From: a virus
Reading direction: 5' to 3' (one strand)
IMG/VR virus record: IMGVR_UViG_3300023109_000032
Span: 1-55,101 of that record
Length of the DNA: 55,101 bases
Part shown: one piece after another, positions 2,815 through 24,201 of the stretch
Layout: every line of letters starts with the position of its first letter
Position numbering within the stretch: position 1 is the stretch's first letter
The notes under the pieces: generated by a model
What the model saw: the letters and a program-made list of their open reading frames with translations, nothing else
The model's database searches: none
Told to the model about the DNA's origin: nothing
Made by a program: the position numbers and the translations under genes

Positions 2815-3873
2815 ATGGAACATATTAAAGACTATAAATTATTTAAAGAGTCTCTAGACACTGAACTACTTACCGAGAAATACAGTTCAGATATATTAAG
2901 ACAGTTTGCTGCACAAGACGGCGGTTCAAGATGGAGAGGCGGAATTGCAAAAGATATGCAAAAATTTGCTAATCTTGCTTTAGATAAAATTTCAGATGCT
3001 GATTTTACTACAACTACACCAGAAGCTTATTGGAAAGGTGGAGATGCTAAGAATCCAAATAAAGTAGGATTCTTTGTTGATGCAGATCCAGGATTTATTA
3101 AATGGGCAAAGGCAAACAAGAAATACATGCCAAGCGGATTATCATTAGGTAACATTTCTAAGTATGGAGTAGTACTTTCTGTTATTAGAGGAGGAATTGG
3201 AATGTATCATGGTTTTGCAATGGACAGAGGATCTTCATACAGCAGACATAGAAAAGGAACTGAAGAAAGATATGGAATTCTTGCAAAAGATTATGAAACT
3301 AATTCTTTATATAATGGATGGGAAGGCAGACCTGCAGCTAAAGTAACAAGAAAGAATCTTATCGATGCTGCAACTCGTGTTTATGTTTTAGACTTAGATA
3401 GTTTAAGAGACAAGTATGATGTAAGTGGATTAAAACAAGATCGTGCAAATTCTAAAGCTGGTGCAACTGCACTAAAAACTGCTAAAGACATCAAAAAAGA
3501 AAATCAAGCAAGGTATGATGCTATCTTAACTGATAGAGCTGCAATGACTGACATTGATAAGGCAGTTAAAGATTCGATTGAATTATTAAATCAACATATA
3601 TCCGATGCATTAAAAGATGGTAATATGGATCAATACGGAAACTTTATTATCGGTAAAAGTCCTAGAGGTAGAGATGTAAAAATTGAAGATGGTGCAAATG
3701 CTATCAGAAATATGTTAAATGATTACCAAAGATATAAGGATTACGAAAGACAAAATAAAGAAGCGGCAGCTGATGGTAGAGAAGATAACTATTATGCAAG
3801 AGAAGTAAAAAACTATGCTAAAAGACTTCAAGACTATTCTAAAAATGTAAAGGATAAAAATTACGGTTGGTAA
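2815..3873 (+). CDS. Predicted head-packaged (internal) protein with T4-like leader
   Basis: Begins MEHIKDYKLFKESL and reaches LLTE at residue 22, followed by KYSSD. This mimics the leader of T4 internal proteins (MKTYQEFIAEA), which the prohead protease removes after L/I-x-E. The remaining 330 residues are highly charged and largely helical, with a Gly/Ser/Arg-rich middle (YGVVLSVIRGGIGMYHGF near 123-140) and a C-terminal Lys/Asp/Tyr-rich coiled region. No enzyme motif is recognised. It heads a run of five genes with the same kind of leader. That it is packaged and ejected with DNA is inferred from this leader. Confidence 0.7.
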   Translation: MEHIKDYKLFKESLDTELLTEKYSSDILRQFAAQDGGSRWRGGIAKDMQKFANLALDKISDADFTTTTPEAYWKGGDAKNPNKVGFFVDADPGFIKWAKANKKYMPSGLSLGNISKYGVVLSVIRGGIGMYHGFAMDRGSSYSRHRKGTEERYGILAKDYETNSLYNGWEGRPAAKVTRKNLIDAATRVYVLDLDSLRDKYDVSGLKQDRANSKAGATALKTAKDIKKENQARYDAILTDRAAMTDIDKAVKDSIELLNQHISDALKDGNMDQYGNFIIGKSPRGRDVKIEDGANAIRNMLNDYQRYKDYERQNKEAAADGREDNYYAREVKNYAKRLQDYSKNVKDKNYGW

Positions 3874-3874
3874 T

Positions 3875-4738
3875 ATGAAACATATAAATGAATACTCTGA
3901 ATTTAAAAAATCATTAATCACCGAAAAATTAGCACGAGGGTTAAAGCCACTATTAAAGATAGGTTCAACTATTAATAAAAAGGCTGGTGAAGATGCATTA
4001 CTGGATTTATCTGATAAGTTTGATAGTATAGATGATGAATATGCTGGAACTATAGCAAGTCATTTAGACATGGCTATTGAACTAATGCAAGATGGTTATG
4101 CAGGAGATGCTACTAAAAAATTAAAGCAATTTAATAAAGCATGCAAAGATGTTCTTAATGGAAAAGAAGTTGGTTCAGCTTTTGAAAACGTTAATGAAGC
4201 AACATATAATTCAAAAAATCATATCGGATCTACTTCTGACGGACAAGGTTCTAATGCTGAGATTTATAAAAAAGGAAAAGGATACTATGTAGTTGTCAGT
4301 GGAGAAGCTGATTATGATTTTGATGCAAAGAATGACAAAGAGTTATTGAAAAAGTTAAAAGATAACGAATTTGATTCTACTGATATATTAGAAGTTAATG
4401 AAGCTACTGATATGAATGATCCAGTCTTAATGGCATTTAGAGCAACTCGAAGAGAATTACCTAAATTTAAACCAGCTAAAGCAAAATCACGTAGGTTAAG
4501 CTTTGATAAGTATATGGATTTATTAGATGATCAAAGGTATATAGAACAAGAACTTAGAGATTTAACTGAAGAAATGGCTCAAACACTTAGAGACATGGAA
4601 CAGGAGGCTGAACCGGAAGGTGGCAAGATTGCTGATAAGTATGGTTCTATTATGATGAAGCAAGAAAAAGAATATGCTAAGTTAAAAGCTAAGAAAGAAA
4701 AGATTGATGCTAGGCTTGACAAACATAGAATGGATTAA
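3875..4738 (+). CDS. Predicted head-packaged polyprotein with internal VNEA sites
   Basis: Leader MKHINEYSEFKKSLITE followed by KLARG: I-T-E at 15-17 fits the T4 prohead-protease rule. Two further sites, VNVNEA-type at 106-109 and EVNEA at 174-177, divide the rest into segments of about 91, 68 and 111 residues. The middle segment looks like a small alpha/beta domain (GYYVVVSGEADYDFDAKND), the last is helical and Glu/Lys-rich. It starts one base after the previous stop and its TAA overlaps the next ATG. Interpretation as a precursor cut into several ejected proteins is inference from repeated sites shared with neighbours. Confidence 0.7.
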   Translation: MKHINEYSEFKKSLITEKLARGLKPLLKIGSTINKKAGEDALLDLSDKFDSIDDEYAGTIASHLDMAIELMQDGYAGDATKKLKQFNKACKDVLNGKEVGSAFENVNEATYNSKNHIGSTSDGQGSNAEIYKKGKGYYVVVSGEADYDFDAKNDKELLKKLKDNEFDSTDILEVNEATDMNDPVLMAFRATRRELPKFKPAKAKSRRLSFDKYMDLLDDQRYIEQELRDLTEEMAQTLRDMEQEAEPEGGKIADKYGSIMMKQEKEYAKLKAKKEKIDARLDKHRMD

Positions 4739-5541
4739 TGGAATTTATTAAAAAATATACAGAATTTTTATTAGAAAAGAAAAAGGAGAAAGAATCCTTT
4801 GAAGATAAAATTGAAGGTGATGGATATTATAAAGGTATATCTACAGCAACTGCTCGAGATAAGGTAGATCAAATGGCAAAACAATCTAAGATGTCTGATG
4901 ATGATCCAGATGCTTATAAAGAAATGCCTGGTGATACTAAAGGTAAAAAACTTTTAAAGAAATCTAAACATACAAAGGCATTTGATGATTTATATGCAGA
5001 TGAAGCTTTAGAAGAAATGGTTACTAATGAAGGTGTAATGAGCGAATTACATATAATGATGGAAGAAGCTAAAAACTTTGCTGATTTTAAGAAAAGATTT
5101 TATAAAGAATTTAGCGATAAAGTTAAACCTAACAAAGATTTAGATAGTTGGTTAAAAGATCTTTACTCTGAAGGCCTAGGAGAATCATTAGATGAAAAAG
5201 CTGGCGGAGATCGTGGTCCTATAAAAGGAAAGGGAATTGAAACTGGCCTTAAAAAGAAAGCAGATCAAACTGGAGTATCATTACCTTTATTAAGATTAGT
5301 AATGAGAAGAGGTATGGCTGCATGGAAAAGTGGACATAGACCTGGTGCTGGTCAAGAACAATGGGGTTATGCTAGAGTTAATTCATTTTTAACTAAAGCT
5401 CCAGGTACTTGGGGTAGACCGTTAGATGATCCTAAAAAGAATGGACCTAAAGGAAAATTTGGAGCTGATGCTGATATTGCTAAAGAAGTAATTAAAAAAG
5501 GCGAAGATAAGAAATTAAAAACAACAGGTTTACCTAAGTAA
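4738..5541 (+). CDS. Predicted head-packaged protein with conserved phage GHRPG domain
   Basis: Leader MEFIKKYTEFLLE then a very lysine-rich stretch; L-L-E at 11-13 fits the prohead-protease rule. Possible later sites are VTNEG (95-99) and SLDEK (150-154). The C-terminal domain (about 180-225) contains GMAAWKSGHRPGAGQ then WGYARVNSFL, a motif combination I know from uncharacterised phage virion-associated proteins (DUF5824-like). No catalytic function is assigned. Both ends overlap neighbouring genes by one base (TAATG), so the block is translated as a unit. Confidence 0.7.
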   Translation: MEFIKKYTEFLLEKKKEKESFEDKIEGDGYYKGISTATARDKVDQMAKQSKMSDDDPDAYKEMPGDTKGKKLLKKSKHTKAFDDLYADEALEEMVTNEGVMSELHIMMEEAKNFADFKKRFYKEFSDKVKPNKDLDSWLKDLYSEGLGESLDEKAGGDRGPIKGKGIETGLKKKADQTGVSLPLLRLVMRRGMAAWKSGHRPGAGQEQWGYARVNSFLTKAPGTWGRPLDDPKKNGPKGKFGADADIAKEVIKKGEDKKLKTTGLPK

Positions 5542-6086
5542 TGAAATTTATAAAAGGCTTTACTGATTTTAAAAATGTATCTGAAGAACTTAAGTATCAT
5601 GTAGATAATGGTATAGGTTTAGATGATAGTGTTTTTCGTTTAGGATCTGATGCTCATAGTAAATTATTTGAAGAGGCTAAACAATATTGGGATAAAGGAA
5701 ATCTAGTATTAAAAGGTAAAAGCGGATTTATGGCTAAGAACCTTGAAGTAGGTAAGCAAGCAATTTATAAAGATCGTAAATCTGGAAGAACAAAAGATGT
5801 TAAATTAGATTCACCAGAAAGAGGCGGTAATAGAAAGTTTATTGTTTATCGTAATAGCGGAAGAACTGATAAAGAAACAGGAAAGATTGTTGCAAAAAAG
5901 ATTGAATGGGGAGATCCTAAATTGTCTGTAAAGAATGATGATCCAGGTGCAGCTGCTAGTTTTTGGGCAAGACACCAATGTGATCAAAAGAAAAAGATGG
6001 ATCCAAATAAAGCTGGCTTTTGGGCCTGTTATGGCCCAAGTCTATTTGGTAAGCAATTAGGATTAAAGAGTACTAATCCTTGGTAA
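5541..6086 (+). CDS. Predicted head-packaged protein, 181 aa
   Basis: Leader MKFIKGFTDFKNVSEE belongs to the same MKxIxxFxxF family as its neighbours, although the cleavage site (VSE) is weaker. The C-terminal half has a Lys/Gly-rich beta-like domain with conserved-looking FWARHQC and GFWACYGPSLF segments, including two cysteines. Fold unknown. It is coupled to the preceding gene by a TAATG overlap and followed by a 24-base AT-rich gap containing TAAATAAATAATAAA, a possible late promoter. Confidence 0.65.
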   Translation: MKFIKGFTDFKNVSEELKYHVDNGIGLDDSVFRLGSDAHSKLFEEAKQYWDKGNLVLKGKSGFMAKNLEVGKQAIYKDRKSGRTKDVKLDSPERGGNRKFIVYRNSGRTDKETGKIVAKKIEWGDPKLSVKNDDPGAAASFWARHQCDQKKKMDPNKAGFWACYGPSLFGKQLGLKSTNPW

Positions 6087-6110
6087 ATAAATAATAAAAT
6101 AAAAAAGGTA

Positions 6111-7481
6111 ATGAAAAATTTAAAAAGAATAGATGAAGCCGTAGGTTCTATCCTAGAAAGAAGAGCTTCTGCTGATAGACTTCTTAAAGATGTTGTAAAA
6201 GGAAATACATCTGAAGTAGATGGTATTAAATTATCCAAGGAAATGGCACAAGGCTTTTTAGATTGGTTACAATATTCTACTTATGGTAAAAAGTTTGGAG
6301 CTTTACCTTTTTATAAATTATTTACTGCTGCATTTAATTGGGGATTAGATAGATTTGTTAAAGGTGCTAATACTAAATTAAAAGCTGAATTTAAAGAACT
6401 TAAAGCTAAAGCTAAAGAAATGAGCAAAGCTGAAATGAAAGGTGAATCTTTAGATGAAGCTATTGATTTATTAAAATCTACATGGAGAGGAACTAAAGGA
6501 TGGAATGATGTTGCAAGAGTAATGGATGCAGGATTAATGAAAGCTATAAAGGCAGGTGGTGTACCATTAAGTTATGCTAAAGATTATGTTAAGTCATTAG
6601 AAAGAATGGCAAAAAGAAATGCTAAAAAGTTCTTTGATGAGTATGGTAATTTTAGTGAAGATGATTTTATCGAGGATATTGAATACAATATGGCTAATGA
6701 GAGTAAGGTTAATGAAGCTAAGTTTAGTTTTTCTGAAGATGAAGTAAAAAATGTTGCTGATTTAATAGCAAAGGCAATTGCAAAAGTTGATAAATCTAAA
6801 ACAGCAGTACATGATATGGAATATGATGCAGGTCGTGGAGCCGGCTTTGAAATATCAATGGACGGAGAAAGATATGAAGGTGGTAGCTATGTAGTAAGAC
6901 CTAATGGTGAAGTTTATAATGCTGCAATTGGTAATTCATTTCCTAACGCTGTATATGCAAAGATAGGTGATACTGATATTAGAAAAGTAATGAAAAATAT
7001 TAAAAAGTTTGAATCTGTTGAAGTATCTGAAAACTATGATACAGAACAAAGAAAAGAAATGGCAGCAAAAGGTTTTGCTTTAGCTGATGGAAGTTTTCCT
7101 ATTGCTAATTTAGAAGATCTCAAAAATGCTATCCAAGCTTATGGTAGAGCAAAGGATCAGGCAAAAACTGCTAAATTTATTGTAAAGAGAGCAAAAGCAT
7201 TAGGTGCTGAAGATCTTGTTCCTGATACGGATGACTTTCAGAAATCTTTAGACGAAACGAGTACTTATATTATGGAAGGTAAGGATATAGGATCATGGAA
7301 TCAAGGAGGACTTAAAGGTGATAAAAATGTTTTAATAACTACTTTTGTTGGGCCTAAGGATATTGAAGATTTTGGTCTAGGAAGAAAATGCATGCAAATA
7401 AATGTTGGTATGGATTATATTTCATTGAATCCTGCTGATATTGTAGAGTTAAAGGATATTCTTAAATCTTATAAAGTATAA
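6111..7481 (+). CDS. Predicted head-packaged multidomain polyprotein
   Basis: Leader MKNLKRIDEAVGSILER contains I-L-E near residue 16. Further candidate cleavage sites are SLDEA (113-117), KVNEA (199-203) and the region around SLDE and IMEG (about 377-390). They separate a Lys/Ala-rich helical segment, a helical domain, an alpha/beta domain (204-300), a domain of about 65 residues with ALADGSFPIANLEDLKNA that recurs in many phage structural proteins, and a C-terminal domain of about 66 residues. The domain boundaries coincide with the sites. The ADGSFPI domain is established as phage-associated; packaging and processing are inferred. Confidence 0.7.
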   Translation: MKNLKRIDEAVGSILERRASADRLLKDVVKGNTSEVDGIKLSKEMAQGFLDWLQYSTYGKKFGALPFYKLFTAAFNWGLDRFVKGANTKLKAEFKELKAKAKEMSKAEMKGESLDEAIDLLKSTWRGTKGWNDVARVMDAGLMKAIKAGGVPLSYAKDYVKSLERMAKRNAKKFFDEYGNFSEDDFIEDIEYNMANESKVNEAKFSFSEDEVKNVADLIAKAIAKVDKSKTAVHDMEYDAGRGAGFEISMDGERYEGGSYVVRPNGEVYNAAIGNSFPNAVYAKIGDTDIRKVMKNIKKFESVEVSENYDTEQRKEMAAKGFALADGSFPIANLEDLKNAIQAYGRAKDQAKTAKFIVKRAKALGAEDLVPDTDDFQKSLDETSTYIMEGKDIGSWNQGGLKGDKNVLITTFVGPKDIEDFGLGRKCMQINVGMDYISLNPADIVELKDILKSYKV

Positions 7482-7926: not shown

Positions 7927-9945
7927 ATGGGAGAAATTTATCCAGAAGAAGAAGAAAAGCAAAGAAAGCCTAAATTTAAAAAACAGACTTTAGTCTTAGA
8001 TACTTATGGTACTAATTTAAGTAAAAGAGCTATCGAAGGTAAATTAGATCCAGTCATCGGAAGAACTGATGAAATCCTTAGGGTTATACAAATTCTAGGA
8101 AGACGTAGAAAAAACAATCCTGTTTTAGTTGGGGAACCCGGTGTAGGTAAAACTGCAATTGTTGAAGGGTTAGCATTAAAAATGGTAGAAGGAAATGTTC
8201 CTGTATCATTACAAGGTAAAGTTATCTATACTTTAGAATTATCAACAATCGTAGCAGGAACAAAATACCGTGGTCAATTCGAGGAAAGAATGAAAAGTAT
8301 TGTAGATGAGTTAATACTTAATCCACATATTATTGTTTTTATTGATGAATTACATACACTCGTTGGGGCAGGAGGTTCTACAGGATCCTTGGATGCGTCA
8401 AATATTATTAAGCCAGCATTAGCAAGAGGAGAAATTAGATGTATAGGTGCAACTACATTTGATGAGTTTAGAGAAAACATCGAAGACGATGGGGCTTTGG
8501 ATAGAAGGTTTCAAAAAGTTACAGTTGAACCACCAACGATGGATCAAACTATTGAAATACTTTCTAATATAAGACATAAGTATGAAGAGCACCATAATGT
8601 TTCTTATGATGATTCAATAATTGAAATTATTGTTAAATTAGCAGATCGTTATATTATGGATAGGTACTTTCCTGATAAAGCAGTAGATATATTAGATGAG
8701 GTAGGTTCTTATAAACACTTAATTAATATGAAAGTTCCTCAAAAAATCAAAGCATTAGAAGAAAAGTTAATTCAAAAAGAAAATGCTAAGAGGAAGGCTG
8801 TATCACGACAACTTTACGAAGTAGCTGCAAAAGAAAGGGATGCATGCTTAACACTCAAAGAAAGAATTAAACAAGATCTTGCGATATGGAAAGAACAAAT
8901 GGCTGTTAATCAATTAGAGATAACCGAAGATGATGTATTAAAGGTTGTATCTAAATCAACAGGTGTTCCAATTGAAAAAATATCAGATAAAGAAAATAAA
9001 AATTTATTAGGGCTTAATAAACATTTATCATCAAGAGTTATAGGACAAGATGAAGCAGTTAATAAAATTGCAGTAACAGTGCAAAGAAACCGAGTAGGTA
9101 TTAGAAAAAGAAACCGAACAATGGGTAACTTTATTTTCTTAGGACCTACTGGAGTTGGTAAAACTCAATTAGCAAAAGAATTAACAGAATATCTTTTTAA
9201 TAGTGAAGATTCATTAATTAGAGTTGATATGTCTGAATACATGGAACCTCATTCTATTTCTAAATTAATTGGAGCACCTCCTGGATATGTAGGATTTGAA
9301 GGTGGTGGATTTTTAACAGAGCAGGTAAAGAGAAAACCGCATTCTGTTGTATTATTTGACGAGATAGAAAAAGCTCATCCAGAAGTCTTTAATGTACTTC
9401 TACAAATGTTAGATGATGGGCAGTTAACCGATTCTTTAGGAAGGACTGTTGATTTTAGAAATTGTTTAATAATTCTTACTTCAAATACAGGATCTAGAAA
9501 ATTACAAGATTTTGGCCAAGGTATCGGTTTTGAAAGTTCTACTAAAATGGTTAACCAAGCTGAAGAAGAAAAAACTATTTTAAGAAAGGCTCTTAAAAAT
9601 AAATTCTCACCAGAATTTTTAAATAGAATTGATGAGATTGTAGTATTTAATAGATTAACCGAAGATAATGTAATGGATATTTTAACTAAAGAATGTAAAG
9701 AACTTGCATCTAATTTAGAAGAAGTAGGAAATTATATTTTTAAAATATCTAAAGGTGCTAAAACAATAATTCTTAATCAAGGATATGATCCTAAATATGG
9801 AGCAAGACCATTACGTAGAACAATTGAAAGAATGATTGAAAATAAGATATCTGAGCATATTCTTAAAGGAGAATTAAAAGAAGGCGGTACTATTAATATT
9901 AAAAGTACCAAAGGTGAATTAATAATTGACATAACAAATATATGA
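7927..9945 (+). CDS. clpC: ClpC-type AAA+ unfoldase lacking the N domain
   Basis: A double-AAA+ HSP100. Walker A1 GEPGVGKT (69-76), Walker B1 VFIDE (137-141), a short UVR-like linker around [22 protein letters not shown] split across 284-305, Walker A2 GPTGVGKT (406-413), Walker B2 VVLFDE (474-479), and an IGF loop at 533-535 where ClpC docks on ClpP. The N-terminal adaptor domain of ClpA/ClpC (about 140 residues) is missing; a short acidic/basic tail replaces it. Length 672 versus about 810-840 in bacterial ClpC. The gene overlaps mgsA by four bases. It probably works with the phage ClpP encoded downstream, or with host ClpP. Confidence 0.93.
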
Positions 9946-10313
9946 GAATAGCTTTAGTAGCTCATGATGGAAAGAAAGCAGATATGGTTGCTTTTGTTAT
10001 GAAAAGATTAGATTTTTTTAAAAGAAAAGATGTAGAGTTAGTAGCAACAGGAACAACAGGAGGTATGATTGAAAATGCCGGCTTAAAGGTTCAATGCTTA
10101 AACAGCGGACCTTTAGGTGGAGATGCAGAAATTGGCGCAATGGTTACTCGTGGTGAAATGGATGCAGTTATATTTTTTAGAGATCCATTAGACAAACATC
10201 CTCACGATGTTGATATTGCAATGTTAATGAGGCTATGTGATGTTCATAGAATACCTTTAGCTACAAATTATGCATCAGCACATATAATAATTAAATACTT
10301 TAAAAGCAAATGA
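9942..10313 (+). CDS. mgsA: Methylglyoxal synthase
   Basis: Predicted to convert dihydroxyacetone phosphate to methylglyoxal plus phosphate. All family landmarks are present in 123 residues: AHDGKK (7-12), phosphate-binding TGTTG (36-40), SGPLGGD with the catalytic Asp at 61, FFRDPL (78-83), HPHDVD (86-91) and ATNYASA (107-113). The C-terminal tail of the E. coli enzyme is shorter here. The gene lies between clpC and clpP with ATGA overlaps on both sides, so expression is tied to the protease. Why a phage would make methylglyoxal is unknown; relief of phosphate limitation, metabolic diversion or toxicity are options. Confidence 0.92.
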   Translation: MRIALVAHDGKKADMVAFVMKRLDFFKRKDVELVATGTTGGMIENAGLKVQCLNSGPLGGDAEIGAMVTRGEMDAVIFFRDPLDKHPHDVDIAMLMRLCDVHRIPLATNYASAHIIIKYFKSK

Positions 10314-10978
10314 ATTACGGAAAAGAATTTCAAAAATATGCAATGAGTGATCATAATGTTAGTTCATCTAAACTAAATTATTATGAAAAGCAAATTGAAA
10401 ACTCAATGACTCCTTATATTTTAGAGGAGAGAGAAATGAGAGCAACACAGATTGATATATTCTCAAGGTTAATGATGGATAGATTACTTTGGGTTGCAGG
10501 ACCAGTTAATGATGGAATGTCAACAATTGTTCAGGCTCAATTAATGTTCTTAGATAGTGTAGAGAAAAAAGATATTACAATGCATATTGATTCCCCGGGA
10601 GGTTCGGTTAAATCAGGACTCTCTATGGTAGATGTTATGGATTATATCAAATCAGATATAAGAACAGTTAATACTGGAATGGCTGCATCTATGGGATCTG
10701 TTTTACTTGGTGCAGGGACAAAAGGAAAAAGAAGTTCACTAAAACATTCAACAACAATGTTGCATCAATCATCAGGTGGTTTTAGTGGAAACATACAAGA
10801 TGCTGAAATAGATTGGACTGAATGGAAAAAAGTTAATAAAGAACTTTTTGTTCTGTTAGGAAAATACTGTGGCAAAAAACCAGAAAAAGTAGCAAAGGAT
10901 GCAACAAGAGATTTCTGGATGAATTCTGAGGAGGCTCTTAAGTATGGAATAATAGATGAAATTATAGGAGTAAAATAA
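10310..10978 (+). CDS. clpP: ClpP-like serine protease
   Basis: Peptidase S14 of 222 residues. The catalytic triad is intact: Ser127 in GMAASMGS, His152 in TTMLHQSSGG, Asp201 in ATRDFWM. The oxyanion/handle region DSPGGSV (94-100) is typical. The N terminus is about 40 residues longer than mature ClpP, perhaps a propeptide. It overlaps mgsA by four bases. With the IGF-containing ClpC two genes upstream it could form a complete phage ClpCP. A prohead-protease role (as for S14-type phage proteases) is an alternative, given the many predicted processed head proteins in the window. Confidence 0.9.
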   Translation: MNYGKEFQKYAMSDHNVSSSKLNYYEKQIENSMTPYILEEREMRATQIDIFSRLMMDRLLWVAGPVNDGMSTIVQAQLMFLDSVEKKDITMHIDSPGGSVKSGLSMVDVMDYIKSDIRTVNTGMAASMGSVLLGAGTKGKRSSLKHSTTMLHQSSGGFSGNIQDAEIDWTEWKKVNKELFVLLGKYCGKKPEKVAKDATRDFWMNSEEALKYGIIDEIIGVK

Positions 10979-12763: not shown

Positions 12764-13741
12764 ATGAATCCAAACACTCAACTAGGTTATTGCTGTATCA
12801 ATCTAAATTTGCGACAGATACCTATCACCGTTAATCGAACATGCAGAAAAGCAACTTTTGAATCTAACGGATTATCTCATGTAAGTAATCTTGCATTACA
12901 AAACATTAGAGATCTTGTTGAGATTATTAAATGGAATGAAAAGAATGGATTTAAAGTTTATCGCATGTCATCAAACATGTTTCCTTGGATGTCAGAGTAT
13001 GAGCTTAAAGATCTACCTGACTATCAAAAAATATCTACATTACTTAAAGGTGCTGGTACCCTTTCTAAAAAATACGGACAACGCCTCAGTTTCCATCCAG
13101 GACCTTTCAATGTACTAGGATCACCTAATCCAGTACTTGTAACAAAAACAATCAAAGAACTTAATCAAACGGCAGAGATTATGGATATTATGGGATTAGA
13201 ACAGTCTAATCATTATCCTATTAATATTCACTGCAACGGTGTTTATGGAGATAAGAAGGCTACATTACAAAGGTGGTCAGATAATTACAAAAGACTTTCA
13301 AAATCAGCTCAAGCCAGATTGGTTGTAGAGAATGATGATAAGGCAAGTATGTATTCTGTAAAAGATTTGTATGACGGTATCTTTTCTGAAGTACAAGTAC
13401 CTATTACATTTGATTTTCATCATCATAGATTTCAACCAGGTGGTTTATCAGAACAAGAAGCATTTGAATTGGCAATGACTACATGGCACCATCATAATGT
13501 AAAACCTTTGTTTCATTACTCATCATGCCGAAGAACATTCGAGGATCCAGGTTGTAAAGCTCAGGCCCATGCTGATTTTGTATATGAAAAAATTAATGAT
13601 TATGGCCATGCCGTAGATATAGAAGTAGAAGCTAAAGCTAAAGAAGTTGCTGTATTAAAATACAAAGATGATAATAAATTATTAGAATCTTATTTACCTT
13701 TTGATGTACATATAGACAATCAATTAGTATTAGAAGTTTAA
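12764..13741 (+). CDS. uvsE: UV damage endonuclease (UvdE/UvsE family)
   Basis: TIM-barrel endonuclease that nicks 5' to UV photoproducts. Family motifs in order: LGYCCINLNL at the N terminus, YRMSSNMFPW, LSFHPGPF, NIHCNGVYGDK, RLVVENDD, TFDFHHHR and LFHYSS; His, Glu and Asp metal ligands lie in these motifs. Length 325 fits the family. It provides light-independent repair of phage DNA, sensible for a surface-water virus. It has its own promoter. Confidence 0.93.
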   Translation: MNPNTQLGYCCINLNLRQIPITVNRTCRKATFESNGLSHVSNLALQNIRDLVEIIKWNEKNGFKVYRMSSNMFPWMSEYELKDLPDYQKISTLLKGAGTLSKKYGQRLSFHPGPFNVLGSPNPVLVTKTIKELNQTAEIMDIMGLEQSNHYPINIHCNGVYGDKKATLQRWSDNYKRLSKSAQARLVVENDDKASMYSVKDLYDGIFSEVQVPITFDFHHHRFQPGGLSEQEAFELAMTTWHHHNVKPLFHYSSCRRTFEDPGCKAQAHADFVYEKINDYGHAVDIEVEAKAKEVAVLKYKDDNKLLESYLPFDVHIDNQLVLEV

Positions 13742-14726: not shown

Positions 14727-15452
14727 ATGGAACATAAAATATTTGAAGTCGGTGGTTGTGTAAGGGACGAAATCTTAGGAGTTCATACAAAAGACATCGA
14801 CTTTACTTTTGTATTAGATAATACTGATATGACAGTAGAAGAAGGGTGGAACAAAATGTTATCTATCCTTGAATCTGAAGGATTCAAAATATTCTTAAAA
14901 ACACCAGACTGTTTTACTGTAAGAGCTATGTTTCCTAAAGGGCATGAGCATGAAGGTTTAGTTGCCGACTTTGTTATGTCTAGGAAAGAAGTAGGAGTTA
15001 TACCTGGAACAAGAAAACCTATATTAGAATTAGGAACTTTAGAGGATGACTTAATGAGAAGGGATTTTACTCTTAATGCCTTATGTAAAGATGAGAATGG
15101 TAATATCATAGATATGTTTAATGGTGTTATAGATTTAAATAATAGAATCCTTAGAACTCCATTACCTCCAATGAAAACTTTAATGGATGATCCTTTAAGA
15201 ATGATAAGAGGTTTAAGATTTTCCATAACCAAAGGTTTTACATTTGATGATGAATTATGGGAATGTATGCAAGAGCCAGGTTTGTTAAGAAAATTAGAAG
15301 ATGTAGTTTCTCAAGAAAGAATCAGAGAAGAAGTTACTAAAATGTTTAAGCATGATACTCTTAAGAGTTTAAATCTTTTAAGAACTATACCTGGATTAAT
15401 GGAAGTTATATTAAAAGATGGGATGTGGTTAATGCCAACAACTAAAAAATAA
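14727..15452 (+). CDS. cca: tRNA nucleotidyltransferase (CCA-adding / PcnB-like)
   Basis: Class II nucleotidyltransferase of 241 residues. Motifs: GGCVRD (9-14), metal-binding DID (23-25) in TKDIDFTFVL, RRDFTLNAL, and DDPLRMIRGLRF, the base- and tRNA-recognising region. It is shorter than cellular CCA enzymes (about 400), lacking most of the C-terminal body and tail domains, like other phage versions. Encoded tRNA genes for Arg, Gln and Pro lack a full CCA in their DNA, so they need such an enzyme. Driven by a full promoter module. Confidence 0.88.
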   Translation: MEHKIFEVGGCVRDEILGVHTKDIDFTFVLDNTDMTVEEGWNKMLSILESEGFKIFLKTPDCFTVRAMFPKGHEHEGLVADFVMSRKEVGVIPGTRKPILELGTLEDDLMRRDFTLNALCKDENGNIIDMFNGVIDLNNRILRTPLPPMKTLMDDPLRMIRGLRFSITKGFTFDDELWECMQEPGLLRKLEDVVSQERIREEVTKMFKHDTLKSLNLLRTIPGLMEVILKDGMWLMPTTKK

Positions 15453-16545: not shown

Positions 16546-16658
16546 TTAAAAGAAAGAATGAATCATCTCAGTTTATTTTTTGTTACTGGGATGATTATTC
16601 TACTTTACCACAAGAAAGAATTAAGAATATTAAAACGAAAACAAAAATAAGAAAATGA
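16530..16658 (+). CDS. Small basic protein, 42 aa
   Basis: MAKEVIKRKNESSQFIFCYW then DDYSTLPQERIKN and a Lys/Thr/Arg tail. It overlaps the preceding gene by 16 bases and its TGA overlaps the next ATG (ATGA); the matching overlaps at both ends support translation. Function unknown. Confidence 0.5.
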   Translation: MAKEVIKRKNESSQFIFCYWDDYSTLPQERIKNIKTKTKIRK

Positions 16659-17539
16659 AATATATTAAAATTTTAGATTTAAACGAAAGTTTAGATGAAA
16701 AAGTAAACGAAGCAGTAAATGCATCAGGCTATATTAAAGCTGGTAAATTAGGTTACAATGATCAATTTTTAGGAAGAAGATCTTTATCATGGACATTATC
16801 AACTGATTTAGGTTTAAAGGCAGCTGATGAATTCGTTGGTCCGTGGTTAGGATTTGATCATGTATCAATGTATGCTATTGGTAAAAAAGGAGGTACTATT
16901 TTAGATGATGCATTAACCAACAAATACACTTATGAAGAACTCAAATCTGCTGCTGCAAAGTATTTAGGGATTAAAGAATCAGCTGATTTAAATGAAGCTA
17001 AATTTGTAAGTTCATATGATACAAAAGTAAATGATGCCGAAACAGAAAAAGACGTTTTAAAAATATACCCAAAGGCTAAATTCTTTACAGGTAAATTAAC
17101 TCACTTCTTTGGAGAACTTGAACCAAATCTTTTCTTTAAAGCTTATTATCCTAAATATTATAAGGAAGATACTGGTAAAACTGTTAAAGGTGATTTTAAA
17201 ATTACTTCAGTCTATTCTGAAAAAGGTAGAAAATATGTTGAGTTAATGAAAGAATCATTAAATGAAGCAAAGAAATTTAAACCAGGTGATAAATGGTCAA
17301 ATGATTTTGATTATGATGGAATGATGAAGTATGCTTTAACGGTGAATCATAAAACTCCACTAAAAACTCTTCAGAAATTACATGATTCTGCAACTGATGT
17401 AAATTACCATACTCCTTTTTCAGGTTTAGGTAATGCAATTGATTGGATAACTGATGATGGTGTTAATTCACAAGAAGGTAAAGACTTTATGAAACAATTT
17501 CATAATGATATTAAATCTGAAATAAAGAAAATGGCATAA
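16655..17539 (+). CDS. Predicted head-packaged polyprotein, three modules
   Basis: Leader MKYIKILDLNESLDEKVNEA contains LNE, LDE and VNEA sites. Further sites LNEA at 112-115 (ESADLNEAKF) and 202-205 (KESLNEAKKF) split the rest into three segments of about 95, 90 and 89 residues, each of which looks like a separate small domain with its own aromatic core. The repeated ES-x-LNEAK context implies one recognition rule. TAATG overlap with the next gene. Inferred to be packaged in the head and cut by the prohead protease into several ejected proteins. Confidence 0.75.
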   Translation: MKYIKILDLNESLDEKVNEAVNASGYIKAGKLGYNDQFLGRRSLSWTLSTDLGLKAADEFVGPWLGFDHVSMYAIGKKGGTILDDALTNKYTYEELKSAAAKYLGIKESADLNEAKFVSSYDTKVNDAETEKDVLKIYPKAKFFTGKLTHFFGELEPNLFFKAYYPKYYKEDTGKTVKGDFKITSVYSEKGRKYVELMKESLNEAKKFKPGDKWSNDFDYDGMMKYALTVNHKTPLKTLQKLHDSATDVNYHTPFSGLGNAIDWITDDGVNSQEGKDFMKQFHNDIKSEIKKMA

Positions 17540-19017
17540 TGAAATATATTAAATTATTTGAAAAGTTCACTAAGGACTATATGAAAAAAATAGACCTTAG
17601 TGATTTTAAGAAAATCAAAAAAGGTTCTAAGATTTTATACATGGGTGGCCAAGTGGAAGTTTTAGATAATAATGGATATGTTCTTAAACTTAAAGGAGAA
17701 GACGGTAGAACCTTTACTATTAATAAATCTCAATTTGATCACGGAGGAATGATTAAAGAAGTATCTGATGGAAAGAAAAAGAAAAAGAAAAAGGAATTCC
17801 ATCCAGATATGATGTATGAGGCTAAAGGCAAAAAGGTTATAAATGATCTTTATAAAATGGATGCTCAAATTGATTATCTTTCTGATGCTGATGATGCAAC
17901 TAAAAAGATATGGAAAAAGGCAGGAGTTAATCCTAATGATGATAATCAAATTATTCTTTACTCATATGTTAATTCATGGCCTGAAACTAAAAAACTTTTA
18001 GACAAATCAAGAATTAAGTATAAAGAATTAGAAGATCCTAATTCTGCAGGTGAATCTTTTATTGTATTTGATGTTAATGAATCAATTAATGAATTAAGAA
18101 CATCACCAGTATCTGGAACAATGGCTGGTTTTACTACATCGTTAGAAGATAGAAAATATGAATTAAAGAAAGATGTTAAAGGCGCTACTATTGGAAACTT
18201 TTCAAATGTAACACTTCCTAAAGGAACTATTATTTATAATTTACCTGGTGGGGTATTTGCAGATCATTTTGCATTAAAACAAAGGTATACGAGTAGATCA
18301 TCACAAGGTCCACAATATTTTGATAAACCAACCTTTAAAGGTATAATGATTAAACAAACACCTGCTGTCTTATCATACATTGAAAAGAACAGTAAAGTTT
18401 TAGAATCATTTGATACAGAAGACGAAGTAATCAATTTTATAGATGGAATAGTTAACGAAGCTAGTGATCAACAAAGATTAACTCATTTAAGAAAATTTGG
18501 AATTGCACCTAATAACCAACCACAGAATGGTGCTTATATAAAACAAGTAGCAAAACCTGGAAAATTCTTCGTGGATTGGAAAGATGCTTTTGATCTAGGT
18601 GATGTTGCATTAGAGTTTGTAAAATCTGTAGGTAGTATTTCTGAGTTTGATATTATTGATCTTAAGACAATGAAACGCACAGGTAAGCAATTAGATGTTA
18701 AGAAAGGTCAATTAGGAAATTTAAGAACTACTTATGGTGTTAGAGTTAATGAATCTCTTAATGAATTATCATCTGCACAAGATGGTACTAAAGATTCTGA
18801 TGGTAAACATAGACATGAACATCATTTAGAAGAAGATATAGAAGCAATGTGGAAAAAAGCCTATGGTGAGAATTTTAGTTCTCAATATCCAGCAGTTGCT
18901 AAAATTATTAAACAAAGAAAGATTAAAGATAAAAGAGAAATTGCTAGAATATGGCAAGATACTTATGGTGAGGATTTTGAAAAAGAATACCCAGCATTAT
19001 TCCAAAAGTTAAGTTAA
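17539..19017 (+). CDS. Predicted head-packaged polyprotein, five modules
   Basis: 492 residues. Leader MKYIKLFEKF, then an SH3/KOW-like beta domain (about 25-70), a lysine run (79-85) and candidate sites MMYEA (91-95), NESINEL (180-186), IVNEA (304-308) and NESLNEL (404-410). The sites delimit modules of about 90, 122 and 101 residues plus an 80-residue end module. The last contains a two-fold helical repeat: MWKKAYGENF...YPAVAKII and IWQDTYGEDF...YPALFQKL. No enzyme motif recognised. One-base overlaps at both ends. Confidence 0.75.
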   Translation: MKYIKLFEKFTKDYMKKIDLSDFKKIKKGSKILYMGGQVEVLDNNGYVLKLKGEDGRTFTINKSQFDHGGMIKEVSDGKKKKKKKEFHPDMMYEAKGKKVINDLYKMDAQIDYLSDADDATKKIWKKAGVNPNDDNQIILYSYVNSWPETKKLLDKSRIKYKELEDPNSAGESFIVFDVNESINELRTSPVSGTMAGFTTSLEDRKYELKKDVKGATIGNFSNVTLPKGTIIYNLPGGVFADHFALKQRYTSRSSQGPQYFDKPTFKGIMIKQTPAVLSYIEKNSKVLESFDTEDEVINFIDGIVNEASDQQRLTHLRKFGIAPNNQPQNGAYIKQVAKPGKFFVDWKDAFDLGDVALEFVKSVGSISEFDIIDLKTMKRTGKQLDVKKGQLGNLRTTYGVRVNESLNELSSAQDGTKDSDGKHRHEHHLEEDIEAMWKKAYGENFSSQYPAVAKIIKQRKIKDKREIARIWQDTYGEDFEKEYPALFQKLS

Positions 19018-19073
19018 TGGCACCATATTTAATTTTTGCTATTATCTTATGCATATTAATAGATACAATATGA
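19017..19073 (+). CDS. Tiny hydrophobic peptide, 18 aa
   Basis: MAPYLIFAIILCILIDTI. It begins on the last base of the preceding stop and its TGA overlaps the ATG at 19070 (ATGA). The exact junctions suggest real translation, at least for coupling; it could also be a minimal membrane peptide. Confidence 0.35.
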   Translation: MAPYLIFAIILCILIDTI

Positions 19074-19396
19074 AATACATTAAACCACTTAACGAAGGAA
19101 GACCTATGTTCCAAGATACTCCTAATGAGTTTGCTTATTTAGATTTTGCAAAGTGGGCATCAAAAAACAAAGGCGATATTAAAAAAGAACTATCCAATAT
19201 TAATGATGGTACTACATTCTTTATAGCACTTAGAAAACTGTGGATGCGTTGGGCTATGAAATATGCAAAGAATTGGAGTTACTTACATTCTACTGCTGTT
19301 GCTAAAAAAGATTTTGGTAGAGCCTTAGCTGTTATGTTAAAGAAAGATAATTTAATAATTAGAAATCAAGGTAATAAATTAACAGATTTAAAATAA
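19070..19396 (+). CDS. Predicted head-packaged protein, 108 aa
   Basis: Start chosen at 19070, giving the leader MKYIKPLNEG with a candidate L-N-E cleavage at 7-9; an upstream in-frame ATG at 19049 would hide this family leader. The body is helical and basic (KLWMRWAMKYAKNWSYLHST). The start overlaps the stop of the tiny ORF. The next gene begins directly after its stop. Confidence 0.65.
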   Translation: MKYIKPLNEGRPMFQDTPNEFAYLDFAKWASKNKGDIKKELSNINDGTTFFIALRKLWMRWAMKYAKNWSYLHSTAVAKKDFGRALAVMLKKDNLIIRNQGNKLTDLK

Positions 19397-19966
19397 ATGA
19401 ATAACATCCCAACATTTAATGAATTTAAAAACCGAAGATTAGTAAATGAAACTTATGATCTTTTAGAAGGGAGTGTAAGTTATGAAGATCTTAATGATGT
19501 TTTAAATGAAGGAATCTTTTCTTTTATTAAGGGTATATTTATGAACCCTTTTCAAAAAAGAAAGTTAAAAAAGTTAGGGGATGAATTATTTAAAATAAAG
19601 GTTCAGATTCAAAAACTAGAAATAGAAGAAAATGATATTGATAGAATGGAGGATGAATTAAAATCAAAAGATTCTAATTATAGTTCGGATTCTTCTATAA
19701 AGAATGCAAAAACCGCCGAAGATAAAAAATTAAAAGCTTTACAGAATAAAGAAGCGATTATAATTGATCAAATGGATACTGTTGCTGGAGATAATCAAAC
19801 TCTAACTAAGTATGTAAATAAGATAAAGCTAGAAATTAGAATGAAGGCAAATGATGCAACTATAAAAATGGCTGATGCCGAAATGAGTAGAATCTTAAAT
19901 AAGATGCAAAAGAAGGATGCTAAAGAAATTAAAGTACTGGATAAAGAATTGGCTAAGGCGGCCTAA
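19397..19966 (+). CDS. Predicted head-packaged coiled-coil protein
   Basis: Leader MNNIPTFNEFKNRRLVNETY, similar to the minus-strand protein that begins MSKIPEFDKFNET. Candidate sites VNE (16-18), LLEG (22-25) and VLNEG (36-40). From residue 50 onward it is a long, charged coiled coil with regular Leu/Ile spacing and many Lys/Glu/Asp. It ends the second head-protein block. Confidence 0.65.
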   Translation: MNNIPTFNEFKNRRLVNETYDLLEGSVSYEDLNDVLNEGIFSFIKGIFMNPFQKRKLKKLGDELFKIKVQIQKLEIEENDIDRMEDELKSKDSNYSSDSSIKNAKTAEDKKLKALQNKEAIIIDQMDTVAGDNQTLTKYVNKIKLEIRMKANDATIKMADAEMSRILNKMQKKDAKEIKVLDKELAKAA

Positions 19967-20222: not shown

Positions 20223-20843
20223 ATGAAAAAGCTCACCTGGTTGTTAGTGTCTTTGTTTTTGCCTTTTGTTGTTTCTTCTCAGTTATGCGATGTTGAATTA
20301 TTAGATATGGATTGGGATGACCAAATTATAACATTAACTTTAAATGATAATGTTTGTTCTAATTCATCTACTCCTAGTTGGGTACCTTACCCTGATTCTG
20401 TGTATGTAGTACAATTAGGATTAAGTTATGGTGGTACGACTTGTACGATAGCTGCTAATTCTACTAATTTTTATCCACCTCTTGGATTAAATGATACTCT
20501 TACTTATACTTTTAGTGATTGGTCAGATCCTTTTGATTGTTTTGCAAATGCATTTACTTATTATCAAGAAACTTGTATAGTTACAGTTTCAGTAGTAGGA
20601 CCTAATAATTCTATTAACTTAGATATGAATAATGGAAATAATTATATAGGCTTTAATCCTGTATGGGATAACTGTTATGGTGTAGCTAATGTTACTGAAT
20701 TAATAAATGCTAATAAGCAGGTAATAGGTGTGTTTGATTTTCTAGGCCGATATATTCAAAAAGATATAATTGGCTTGATTTCTGGGAAATTATATTTAAT
20801 CAAATATAATGATGGCACCATAAAAAAATTACTAGTTACCTAA
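20223..20843 (+). CDS. Secreted protein with short T9SS-like C-terminal domain
   Basis: Sec signal peptide MKKLTWLLVSLFLPFVVSS with Gln at the predicted +1, then LCDVELL. The body is beta-rich with several Cys (possible disulfides) and YGGTT. The last 45 residues (VIGVFDFLGRYIQ ... GKLYLIKYNDGTIKKLLVT) match the end of T9SS type-A sorting domains, in which G-x-Y-x-[IV]-K and a Lys-rich end are conserved. A relative with the same architecture lies at 44644. Predicted to cross the inner membrane by Sec and the outer membrane by host T9SS. First gene of the island. Confidence 0.75.
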   Translation: MKKLTWLLVSLFLPFVVSSQLCDVELLDMDWDDQIITLTLNDNVCSNSSTPSWVPYPDSVYVVQLGLSYGGTTCTIAANSTNFYPPLGLNDTLTYTFSDWSDPFDCFANAFTYYQETCIVTVSVVGPNNSINLDMNNGNNYIGFNPVWDNCYGVANVTELINANKQVIGVFDFLGRYIQKDIIGLISGKLYLIKYNDGTIKKLLVT

Positions 20844-20891
20844 AGCCCTTTGTATTATGTATCTTAGAGTCACCTTTAAGATATATAATAT

Positions 20892-22088
20892 ATGCGATAC
20901 TTCAAATTATTCATCTTATGTTTTATCCTGGCGATGCCTATCGTCCATGCACAAACTACTACAGTAAACTTGAGGTCACTTAAAACTCACTATGGTGGAA
21001 GCCAATCAGGTCAGATGTATTCACAAAATGCTGACAGTCACATAGAATTTGATGCAATGGTTAATCTTGCTGATGCCGGTACTACACTTTATTTAGATAC
21101 AACGGTAGATATAACAAGTTACCAAGGACCAAGAGGTGGTAATCATACTCCTTATCAACTATGGAATCCACCAAGATGGGGTGGAGCTGGTACTCAAAGA
21201 TATGCAATTATCTATACAGGTTGGTTTAAACCTAATAAAACAGGTACATACGGGTTCAGAACATTCACCGATGACTCACATGAGTTTATGATTAAAGGTA
21301 TTGGTAAAACTAATGATATAGTTACTAAACATTATGGGTGGAATACATGGGCTTATGGTACGGCAACACTAAACAAAAATACATGGTATGAGTTTGAATA
21401 TAGAATACAGAATTTTGGTGGTATAGGTGCTGCAAATTTTCAATATAAAATACCAAGTAGTAATACATACAATCAACTTAGTCCTAATCATCCATTTGCA
21501 GAATGGACTTCTACAGATCCTAACGCGGTACCTATCACGGCGAGTGGTTATATTAAAGGAGCAGAAGAACAAGGTATTGCAGGACAAACTGTTTATCTAA
21601 AGACACAAAATAAAAACCAAGTAGGTTTCTCATATACAACACAAGCAACTACAACAACAGATTCAAATGGATATTATTCATTTAATACTATTTTAAATTA
21701 CAACGATTACGATTTTACAATAGACATCACTCCGACAATAGGAACACTTACAACTTCAGATATTAACTGGTTCCAAGATAGATTACTATCAGATACAGTT
21801 AGTTCTAAAGATTACTGGAGACTTGATGTAAATAATACAGGTTCATTTTCTGCCTCTGACATTTATCTAATGCATCAGAAGAGACAAGGTAACATTTCTA
21901 GTTACCCTGGTGGAGGCCAGGAAATATGGACTACAAATTACTGGCAGCAACCTCATGTATGGGATGCCGTTTCAGTAGACATAGATGATAAATCATTGCT
22001 CTCTGGTTACGGAGCATGGTCCCTCTTTGATTTAGCTAATGGAAATCAAACAACTTTCTATGTAATAAGAGCGGGCCATAAAAACTAA
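20892..22088 (+). CDS. Secreted PA14-like plus dockerin-like protein
   Basis: Signal peptide MRYFKLFILCFILAMPIVHA followed by Gln. Residues about 85-215 resemble a PA14 (sugar/adhesion) domain: IIYTGWFKPNKTGTYGFRTF and DDSHEFMIKG. Next comes a carboxypeptidase-regulatory-like beta domain (GYIKGAEEQGIAGQTVYLK ... DSNGYYSF), then a dockerin-like pair of half-repeats: TTSDINWFQDRLL and DVNNTGSFSASDIYLMHQK, the second matching the DxNxDGxxxxxD calcium-loop layout. The end ENG...TTFYVIRAG resembles the next protein's end. Probably an exported adhesin or part of a cell-surface complex. Confidence 0.75.
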   Translation: MRYFKLFILCFILAMPIVHAQTTTVNLRSLKTHYGGSQSGQMYSQNADSHIEFDAMVNLADAGTTLYLDTTVDITSYQGPRGGNHTPYQLWNPPRWGGAGTQRYAIIYTGWFKPNKTGTYGFRTFTDDSHEFMIKGIGKTNDIVTKHYGWNTWAYGTATLNKNTWYEFEYRIQNFGGIGAANFQYKIPSSNTYNQLSPNHPFAEWTSTDPNAVPITASGYIKGAEEQGIAGQTVYLKTQNKNQVGFSYTTQATTTTDSNGYYSFNTILNYNDYDFTIDITPTIGTLTTSDINWFQDRLLSDTVSSKDYWRLDVNNTGSFSASDIYLMHQKRQGNISSYPGGGQEIWTTNYWQQPHVWDAVSVDIDDKSLLSGYGAWSLFDLANGNQTTFYVIRAGHKN

Positions 22089-22105
22089 AAAATAATTAAA
22101 AACAA

Positions 22106-23200
22106 ATGAAACTAAAAAACATTTTTCTAACACTGGCTTTAGCTATCAGTACAACGACGGTCTTCGGCCAGACTACTGCACCTGATGCAACAAAACCTTA
22201 TGTTATTTTTGATTCAACGTACACTTTAGAATCCACTGGTTCTAGTTCAAACACTGAGTTTGATATTTACTATGATAACACATCTGGTAATGCAGTTAAA
22301 GGTATTCAGTTTTCGTTTAATTATGATAACACGGTATTTGATGAACCAACATTAACATATAACAATACATCCGGCCCTGTTGGATATTTGTCGTATGATG
22401 TTGATTCAACAAACGGAGTAGTAAAAGTAGTATGGGTTTATACTGGAGCATCTACCACTTTCGATGTGGTTACTGGTAATATGTTTACAGTAAATGCACC
22501 TTTTCTATCAAATTACACAAACGGAGCAGTTGCTGATGTAGATTTTACTGCTGATCTTACTGCTTATTATGTAAAAGCTGATGGAACAGATGGAGCTCTA
22601 GGCACACAAGATAATGGTGGTAACTTTATAGAACCGGCATTTGATTATGTAGCAACTATCTTAAATAGTGGAACAAATCCAGCTGAATCTATTCCTGTGA
22701 TTTTACAAAAATCATCTGATGGAAATACTTGGGTAGATGTAACTACAGTAACAACGGCTGCTAATGGAACTGCAACATTTTCAGAAAGCTTAGATCAATC
22801 TTACTGGCAAATTAGACTTAAGATTGCAAGTGGATTAGATGCAACTACGGCACTATCAACTGCAGATGCTAATATGATCGCACAAATTGCTGCAGGAGTA
22901 CAATCAGCTTCTGGTATTCAGTTCTATACTGCAAATCCAAATCAAGCTACTGGAATTACAGCATCGGATTCTTATTTAGTATTCTCTAGATTAGCACAAG
23001 GTAACTTAAGTTACGCTTCTAATCCAGATGTATTGTTCTTTACTGAAGCACAATATAATACTATTAATGGTTCTAGTTCAGATCAATCAAGTTCAATTCC
23101 AGGACTATCAGTATTTTTATCTCCACAAATTAATGGAACTACTACCGGTAACTTCTACCTATTAATCTTAGGTGATGCCAACGGTACAGGTTTAAACTAA
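22106..23200 (+). CDS. Secreted cohesin-like plus dockerin-like protein
   Basis: Signal peptide MKLKNIFLTLALAISTTTVFG then Gln, as in its neighbours. Residues about 35-150 resemble a cohesin-type beta sandwich (TEFDIYYDNTSGNAVKGIQF, FNYDNTVFDEPTL, VVKVVWVYTG). A middle beta domain follows, then a dockerin-like duplication: TALSTADANMIAQIAAGV and GITASDSYLVFSRLAQGN. The second half-repeat and the closing FYLLILG parallel the upstream protein (SASDIYLMHQKRQGN, FYVIRAG), so the two share a C-terminal module. It lacks a recognisable T9SS domain. Confidence 0.72.
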   Translation: MKLKNIFLTLALAISTTTVFGQTTAPDATKPYVIFDSTYTLESTGSSSNTEFDIYYDNTSGNAVKGIQFSFNYDNTVFDEPTLTYNNTSGPVGYLSYDVDSTNGVVKVVWVYTGASTTFDVVTGNMFTVNAPFLSNYTNGAVADVDFTADLTAYYVKADGTDGALGTQDNGGNFIEPAFDYVATILNSGTNPAESIPVILQKSSDGNTWVDVTTVTTAANGTATFSESLDQSYWQIRLKIASGLDATTALSTADANMIAQIAAGVQSASGIQFYTANPNQATGITASDSYLVFSRLAQGNLSYASNPDVLFFTEAQYNTINGSSSDQSSSIPGLSVFLSPQINGTTTGNFYLLILGDANGTGLN

Positions 23201-23201
23201 T

Positions 23202-23939: not shown

Positions 23940-23940
23940 G

Positions 23941-24201
23941 ATGGAAGATAAAAAGGGAGGGTTCTTTTCAGAAATTAAGAATCAAATAGTAACTGGGATA
24001 GGTTTAGTTATAACAGCGGCTTTTGGATTATTGATAGCCAATATGCAATCTATATTTGAGCCTAAAGAAGAAAAAGTAGATCCACCTGTCATGGAGCAAA
24101 GAATCAATACACCAAATAATATAAAAGATACTTTGGTAATAACAAAAACAATAGTTATACCTCCTAAGAAAGAAGAAAAAGAAGAAGAGATATCATGGTA
24201 A
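23941..24201 (+). CDS. Single-TM protein with charged Pro/Lys/Glu tail
   Basis: A polar N terminus (MEDKKGGFFSEIKNQ), one membrane segment (VTGIGLVITAAFGLLIANM) and a disordered periplasmic-looking tail ending PPKKEEKEEEISW. The topology is TonB- or spanin-like, without either family's motifs. It overlaps the CsgG-like gene by seven bases, so it may serve the export system. Confidence 0.6.
   Translation: MEDKKGGFFSEIKNQIVTGIGLVITAAFGLLIANMQSIFEPKEEKVDPPVMEQRINTPNNIKDTLVITKTIVIPPKKEEKEEEISW

Follow-up and report, generated by a model that had tools for sequence, protein, structure and literature searches.

The window analysed here, a linear viral fragment of 55,101 bases (IMG/VR record IMGVR_UViG_3300023109_000032), encodes eleven proteins that begin with variants of one short N-terminal leader. 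Judged from its sequence, a single tag seems to designate many unrelated proteins of this marine phage for loading into the head, and the leader is well supported as a T4-like capsid-targeting sequence (CTS). The tagged proteins are probably cargo inside the head of a T4-type phage, targeted by the leader, divided by a protease and delivered with the DNA. It also seems reasonably likely that T4-type phages of this group load polyproteins, in which one leader precedes several small modules split by prohead-protease sites; the cleavage motif would then act both as release signal and as exchange joint, and a combinatorial cargo library would be delivered with the DNA.

The first-pass annotation of this DNA had described the eleven genes as starting with MKxIxxFxxF, reaching L/I-x-E within about 20 residues and differing completely beyond the leader. 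All eleven candidate ORFs were found at the positions it gave. The 13-residue leader was modelled as a position profile, using 54 leader sequences in five related contigs and none from the window. Among the 88 window gene calls, this profile placed nine of the eleven in the top 10 and the remaining two 13th and 17th. Against 26,400 shuffled N-termini, p ranged from 4e-5 to 2e-3 for the nine top genes and was 0.006 for the ORF at 19049 and 0.022 for that at 45657–46112; nine window genes reached a leader score of at least 3, compared with 0.1 in shuffled N-termini. The shared leader is confirmed as a sequence feature. The literal motif holds less widely: the genes at 6111 (MKNLKRIDE), 16655 (MKYIKILDLNE) and 19067 (MKYIKPLNE) have MKxI or MKxL without the two phenylalanines, 17539 has no L/I-x-E just past the leader and only an L-F-E inside it, and 5541 carries V-S-E instead, which is V-S-P in several relatives, so that its cut is doubtful. 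Leaders are about 9–24 residues long and terminate in [LIVF]-x-E, and deeper L/I/V-x-E sites, overlooked in the annotation, occur in 3875, 4738, 6111, 16655, 17539, 19397 and 46114. The genes, named by their first coordinate, are listed below with predicted cuts marked by a slash.

2815–3873, plus strand: leader gene, 352 aa; MEHIKDYKLFKESLDTELLTE/K; single large module
3875–4738, plus strand: leader gene, likely polyprotein; MKHINEYSEFKKSLITE/; inner VNE/A after residues 108 and 176 (bases 4198 and 4402)
4738–5541, plus strand: leader gene; MEFIKKYTEFLLE/; C-terminal DUF5824 module after SLDE/
5541–6086, plus strand: leader gene; MKFIKGFTDFKNVSE/; conserved module of 166 aa
6111–7481, plus strand: leader gene, likely polyprotein of about five modules; weak leader MKNLKRIDE/AVGSILE/R
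16655–17539, plus strand: leader gene, likely polyprotein of three modules; MKYIKILDLNE/S; sites after bases 16687, 16711, 16996 and 17266
16997–17266, plus strand: middle module of the 16655 ORF; LNE/A at both borders; non-homologous replacement in the relative G001
17539–19017, plus strand: leader gene, likely polyprotein; MKYIKLFEKF, no clear cut right behind the leader; VNESINE/, VNE/A and VNESLNE/
19067–19396, plus strand: leader gene; short leader MKYIKPLNE/G; ORF listed from 19049, true start most likely 19067
19397–19966, plus strand: leader gene; MNNIPTFNEFKNRRLVNE/TYDLLE/...LNE/GIF; top leader score of the window
45657–46112, minus strand: leader gene, weak score; MASIDLIPGFESFNE/N
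46114–46581, minus strand: leader gene; MSKIPEFDKFNE/T; inner sites INE/A and VNE/A

Relatives were found through ORF 5541, which matched 16 viral-contig loci at 63 to 97% identity, many of them in fragmentary records, and whose module is kept in all 16; ORFs 16655, 2815 and 6111 yielded no more than 4, 2 and 2 loci, respectively. With leave-one-genome-out profiles and a score of at least 7, the leader was assigned to 12 of 205 gene calls in G001, the nearest relative, 24 of 191 in G012, 12 of 146 in G011 and 12 of 128 in G009, with 0 to 0.2 in shuffles. The 294-kb contig G015 carries it on 40 of 426 gene calls (0.2 in shuffles), and the 462-kb huge phage LR756500 on 33 of 640 (null 0.75). Typical leaders are MKHIKLFEQFINE/A in G012, MKNIPTFEDFVNE/S in G015 and MKYIKEYEEFLLE/ in LR756500, in which several leader-tagged proteins, for example that at 180972–181730, resemble leucine-rich repeat proteins by eye. 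Two alignments were made, one of 57 among 65 listed reference proteins (eight were removed by eye as doubtful) and one of 40 proteins from G015, picked by eye and including four outside the scored list of 47. Rows in both were chosen by their leader, and the invariant E13 of the G015 alignment is therefore partly selected. The consensus of both alignments is almost wholly confined to the leader, which bears out the earlier statement that the bodies are unrelated. At shared leader residues the same codon was used at a rate of 0.58 in G012 (0.52 expected) and 0.61 in G015 (0.59 expected). Since leader codons are hardly more alike than chance, these comparisons indicate that the peptide, not the DNA, is what has been conserved; recent copying would be expected to leave near-identical codons, and their mixture speaks against it. 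A leader dialect specific to each genome was considered as a general rule and rejected, as the own-genome profile gave the better score for 11 of 12 ortholog pairs in G015 and results were mixed elsewhere (88 directed pairs in total). In Flavobacterium phage immuto, another N-terminus recurs at record positions 113188, 117631 and 118632 (MKKSQLRQIIKE/A; MENFDLKKFLVE/N) and may be a further dialect; an immuto ORF at 107131 links a nucleotidyltransferase-like part to an adenylyltransferase part, with [LIV]xE at the junction.

A T4-type prohead protease (Peptidase_S77) is present in four of the 16 relative records, the four longest, G001 among them, and a gp23-type capsid protein in five. The G001 protease ORF encodes 573 aa with a long C-terminal extension and lies directly upstream of the capsid gene. 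Tenacibaculum phage PTm1 has the same protease-capsid arrangement, annotated there as 'prohead core scaffolding protein and protease'. In G001 (18182–19903), G012 (43482–45410) and PTm1 (217853–219547), the prohead protease has a long, scaffold-like tail fused to it, with many [LIV]NE or [LIV]xE sites in the tail. The best tblastn matches of the G012 capsid protein were a 462-kb uncultured huge phage, Lak megaphages and Tenacibaculum jumbo phages.

CTS-driven packaging is established in T4, and a review on the T4 head suggests that the CTS is possibly a general route by which T4-like phages load varied proteins (PMC9026906). As a control, 153 gene calls covering 100 kb of T4 were scored with the distal eight leader columns, for which training had used the present phages exclusively. 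The top two ranks went to IPIII and IPII with 16.2 each, followed by the scaffold protein gp22 (4.7), and IPI ranked sixth (2.4). The eight-column form was devised after the full profile had failed on T4 and was thus blind to T4 letters in training, not in design. In the ten-residue CTS of T4, targeting is described as acting mainly via residues 4 and 7 and processing via residues 8 and 10 (PMC9026906). When TYQEFIAE is aligned to TFEDFVNE, T4 residues Y4, F7, I8 and E10 correspond to leader positions F7, F10, [LIV]11 and E13, which are among the best-kept columns. The T4 proteins IPI, IPII, IPIII and Alt resemble those described here in their short N-terminal leader, with aromatic residues where the T4 targeting residues lie, and in the [LI]-x-E cut motif, the unrelated bodies and a gp21-type protease, found here in relatives. 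They differ in number, with a handful of tagged proteins in T4 and up to 40 of 426 gene calls here, and in that the leader here usually has 13 residues with an additional N-terminal part. Inner cut sites and exchangeable modules also set the present proteins apart, with no such case in the literature searched. The suggestion in the first-pass annotation that the leader is a packaging signal is backed by its occurrence on unrelated bodies in relatives, the T4-type protease, the match to IPII and IPIII and the residue alignment.

Predicted protease sites also occur inside several leader proteins. The motif [LIV]NE[AGS] was counted beyond residue 40, leaving out proteins below 90 aa and those with leader scores between −3 and 3. 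In 113 leader proteins it was found 35 times, compared with 2.8 expected by composition (12.5-fold), and in 810 other proteins 70 times (35.3 expected), while the control [LIV]EN[AGS], built from the same residues in another order, was not enriched among leader proteins (3 vs 2.9). The excess is strong in the window (8 vs 0.36) and G001 (11 vs 0.42) and moderate in G012 (5 vs 0.78) and G015 (9 vs 1.02); on these counts, the putative polyproteins belong mainly to the subgroup of the window itself. Seventeen proteins that fall short of the leader threshold contain at least two such motifs; three of them are protease-scaffold proteins (G001, G012 and G015) and one is the G001 major capsid protein, substrates expected for such a protease. 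The spacing of sites in multi-site proteins has a median of 106 residues. Passage through portal and tail is a possible reason for small units; T4 Alt, encoded by a gene of 2,049 bases, is much larger and yet ejected, so that size is no strict limit.

The same sites often coincide with the borders of exchanged segments. For a module map, window ORFs were cut at the sites and the pieces searched with iterated HMMs; the near-copies L005, L009, L011 and L017 were left out here and from the count of alignment ends, and L008 and L015 additionally from the map. Module 6111b stands right behind the leader in L004_7132 (YTDFINE/A) and internally in L006_9938, where it precedes 6111a, opposite to the window order. 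Module 6111d directly follows the leader in the G001 protein at 77476 (GEFITE/A) and is internal in three other proteins, 16655a is the sole body of the leader protein G011 73416, and L004_9058 joins modules that belong in the window to 16655, 17539 and 6111. The 2815 module is also C-terminal in longer G012 and G011 proteins, preceded by a site each time, and the parts of 4738 are separate or otherwise fused genes in relatives. Local protein alignments ended within 3 residues of [LIV]xE in 83 of 197 cases (25.3 expected); the controls gave 1 vs 0.5 for [LIV]EN and 2 vs 1.7 for [LIV]NK, and [LIV]KE, which falls within the [LIV]xE motif, gave 8 vs 2.5.

Breakpoints of DNA homology agree with these borders. 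The window was compared with four of the 16 relatives (G001, L003, L004 and L006), and the 40 breakpoints inside leader genes were collapsed to 23. For twelve of these, a predicted cut is no more than 12 nt away (2.6 expected, binomial p 1.8e-6), and control motifs gave 2 vs 4.2 ([LIV].K) and 2 vs 4.3 ([LIV].D). The clearest case is ORF 16655, whose flanks are 81% and 87% identical to G001 in blastn, with homology ending at 16999 and resuming at 17261. The middle cassette has been swapped within 5 bases of the two predicted cuts after bases 16996 and 17266, and in its place G001 has a module homologous to one in window ORF 17539. Homology between the 3875 gene and G001 stops at 4403, and the breakpoints at 6462, 6717 and 7028 in the 6111 gene adjoin its inner sites (SLDE/A, VNE/A, VSE/N and SLDE/T). 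Several leader ORFs look like polyproteins by these sequence comparisons, and their division by the prohead protease appears to explain inner sites, exchanged modules and breakpoints best. The eleven ejected effectors proposed initially are probably a wrong count in kind, because several of the ORFs resemble strings of modules joined by protease sites; the eleven candidates probably represent more than 20 modules.

The process that we propose starts with the leader of about 10–20 residues, which would, judging from T4, bind the prohead core and so bring a whole polyprotein into the head. A gp21-type protease, as encoded in the relatives, would cut after [LIV]-x-E, freeing the body and dividing it into compact modules of about 100 residues. 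Upon infection, again judging from T4, the modules would exit with the DNA and function at an early stage in the host. With a site at the end of each module, recombination could exchange modules with packaging and release retained.

The inner motifs might instead be only the joints of multidomain proteins, comparable to the polyvalent proteins of other phages, that stay whole behind a leader that still targets the capsid. Multidomain injected proteins have already been described (PMC5512222), recombination at domain borders could by itself place breakpoints in linkers, and some relatives lack inner sites. Nevertheless, this explanation appears unlikely, as the joints bear a specific motif and are not mere linkers, control motifs are not clearly enriched at breakpoints, a module can be preceded by the same site whether it follows a leader or lies within an ORF, and module order is not conserved. 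Quite unlikely in our view is a role of the tagged proteins as core or scaffold parts used in head building, which would be cut and then stay or be lost instead of being ejected. T4 IPIII is reported to aid head morphogenesis (PMC9026906), and the leader genes G001 22041, G012 45462 and G011 93037 adjoin capsid or protease genes, whereas 40 tagged gene calls out of 426 with unrelated, exchanged bodies better fit cargo, as do the enzyme families (RimK-type ligase, zeta-like kinase, cytidylyltransferase-like) in relatives. It is highly improbable that the leader is left over from gene duplication or serves in translation start, without function in the protein: many leader genes are adjacent, but their synonymous codons vary nearly as much as expected from the codon usage of the genome, the bodies are unrelated and the leader matches T4.

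Several observations weigh against ejected, protease-divided cargo. No head genes were recognised among the listed ORFs of the window fragment, and its own protease is therefore inferred from G001, given the 81–87% DNA identity around ORF 16655. The full 13-column profile fails on T4, ranking IPI 7, IPIII 14, IPII 15 and Alt 108 of 153, owing to a T4 leader that is shorter by three residues, and Alt is only 22nd with the distal eight columns. The leader dialect is nearly missing in PTm1 (1 of 297), Lak-A2 (0 of 589) and HTVC008M (0 of 183), and the inner-site excess is about absent in G011 (1 vs 0.44) and G009 (1 vs 0.2) and nil in LR756500 (0 vs 1.34). Leader genes are not clustered near capsid or protease genes, except weakly in G015 (5 vs 2.3 expected), and share no common upstream motif. 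The AlphaFold model of ORF 16655 was uninformative (pLDDT 50.6). Leader bodies in the window are near neutral, not basic, with a net charge per residue of 0.006 compared with −0.015 in other proteins (p 0.12). The mature IPI, IPII and IPIII of T4 are basic, a typical and not a defining property. A link to late promoters was also tried and rejected, since the regions upstream of leader genes showed no signal for TATAAATA-like sites or enriched 7-mers.

Besides T4 and a fusion protein of phage Melnitz described below, two known systems come close to the cargo polyproteins proposed here. Polyvalent proteins of phages and conjugative elements likewise combine several domains in one polypeptide, are strongly shuffled and are proposed to be delivered with DNA and divided into units, in their case by a metallopeptidase domain of their own (Iyer et al. 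2017, PMC5512222). An own peptidase domain is described as frequent, not universal, in that group, whereas the joints here carry the prohead-protease motif; a Pfam scan of ten of the eleven window leader proteins (all except 45657–46112) detected no peptidase family. The inner head and ejection proteins of phiKZ and SPN3US are similar in that many proteins are ejected and a gp21-like protease cuts after x-x-E (PMC5694885). According to that account most of the processed proteins have long propeptides, often of more than 100 residues, and A/S-x-E sites, in contrast to the short leaders and [LIV]-x-E read from the sequences here. The scale of leader use and the prohead-protease motif as a joint appear to be new; no paper on CTS-tagged polyproteins was found in the open-access literature, and one may exist elsewhere. 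If the proposal is true, a short sequence rule would list tens of virion-packaged proteins per genome in uncultured T4-type phages, nearly all now 'hypothetical', with exact predicted N-termini. It would also describe a T4-type way to deliver many separate activities, in which modules are cut in the head and not by a peptidase in the protein, and would predict the entry point for new cargo, between two protease sites.

The nature of the cargo is more apparent in relatives than in the window, where bodies mostly fall into no Pfam family except for DUF5824 in 4738–5541 (PF19141, 2.2e-14). Leader proteins in the alignment of 57 have matches to the CTP_transf_like, Zeta_toxin/AAA_33 and HD families, and those of G015 to RimK ATP-grasp (1.9e-34) and Thymidylat_synt (2.6e-10). 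Individual scans confirmed the RimK (G015 238020), zeta-like kinase (G012 125095) and CTP_transf_like (G012 71200) assignments and identified G012 137480 as an enzyme of poly(A)-polymerase/CCA type. The leaders of G015 238020 (MKNRLAYFNEFVINE/A, score −2.7) and G012 137480 (MQLKTFTEFQMITE/A, score −19.2) were recognised by eye only and lie below the threshold. A comparison of window positions 14727–15452 with locus L045:17480–18634 sets a CCA-adding-like window ORF that has no leader, recognised by eye, against this G012 enzyme of the poly(A)-polymerase family with its leader-like MQLKTFTEFQMITE/A start. In Methylophilales phage Melnitz, a 650-aa ORF annotated as hypothetical (QZI94751) holds the C-terminal part of 4738 and the 5541 module behind MKKFSEIIE/A, with a nucleotidyltransferase-like part (by eye) preceding DUF5824. 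An ORF of Agrobacterium phage Atu_ph07 begins with MKWNDLNE/A and contains an ADP-ribosyltransferase-like part (by eye) and, behind VTE/G, the zeta-like kinase. When 1000 solved chains were aligned to the model of ORF 5541 (pLDDT 77), none matched with a Z above 2.8, and its viral structure matches were only pT24 and unnamed or uncharacterised proteins; 2815–3873 had no PDB sequence match at E≤1. The virion proteome of phage YerA41 is reported to comprise 63 proteins, replication enzymes among them (PMC7354516). YerA41 was left unused as virion evidence, as its RimK-like protein, although annotated as structural, has no leader.

Some other genes of the window point to the host and to further functions. 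The ORF at 23202–23939 has both a Cohesin-like domain (PF00963, 3.8e-9) and a C-terminal sorting domain of type IX secretion (PF18962, 1.7e-8), and additional signal-peptide-like ORFs lie beside it within 20223–26602. These features point to phage-borne secreted proteins of host type and to a host among the Bacteroidetes, which is the most likely assignment. At 18–1372, a SIS-domain sugar isomerase adjoins a CTP_transf_3 cytidylyltransferase; we take the two to be KdsD and KdsB of the Kdo pathway, and the pair suggests surface-sugar modification. A Clp system follows right after the first leader cluster, with a ClpC/ClpB-type AAA ATPase (7927–10978) and a ClpP-like ORF nearby at 10310, the latter identified by eye, and a UvdE UV endonuclease is encoded at 12764–13741 (2.3e-57). 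The long ORF at 52655–55099, open at the window end, contains collagen-like GPQGPQG repeats and is probably a tail fibre gene.

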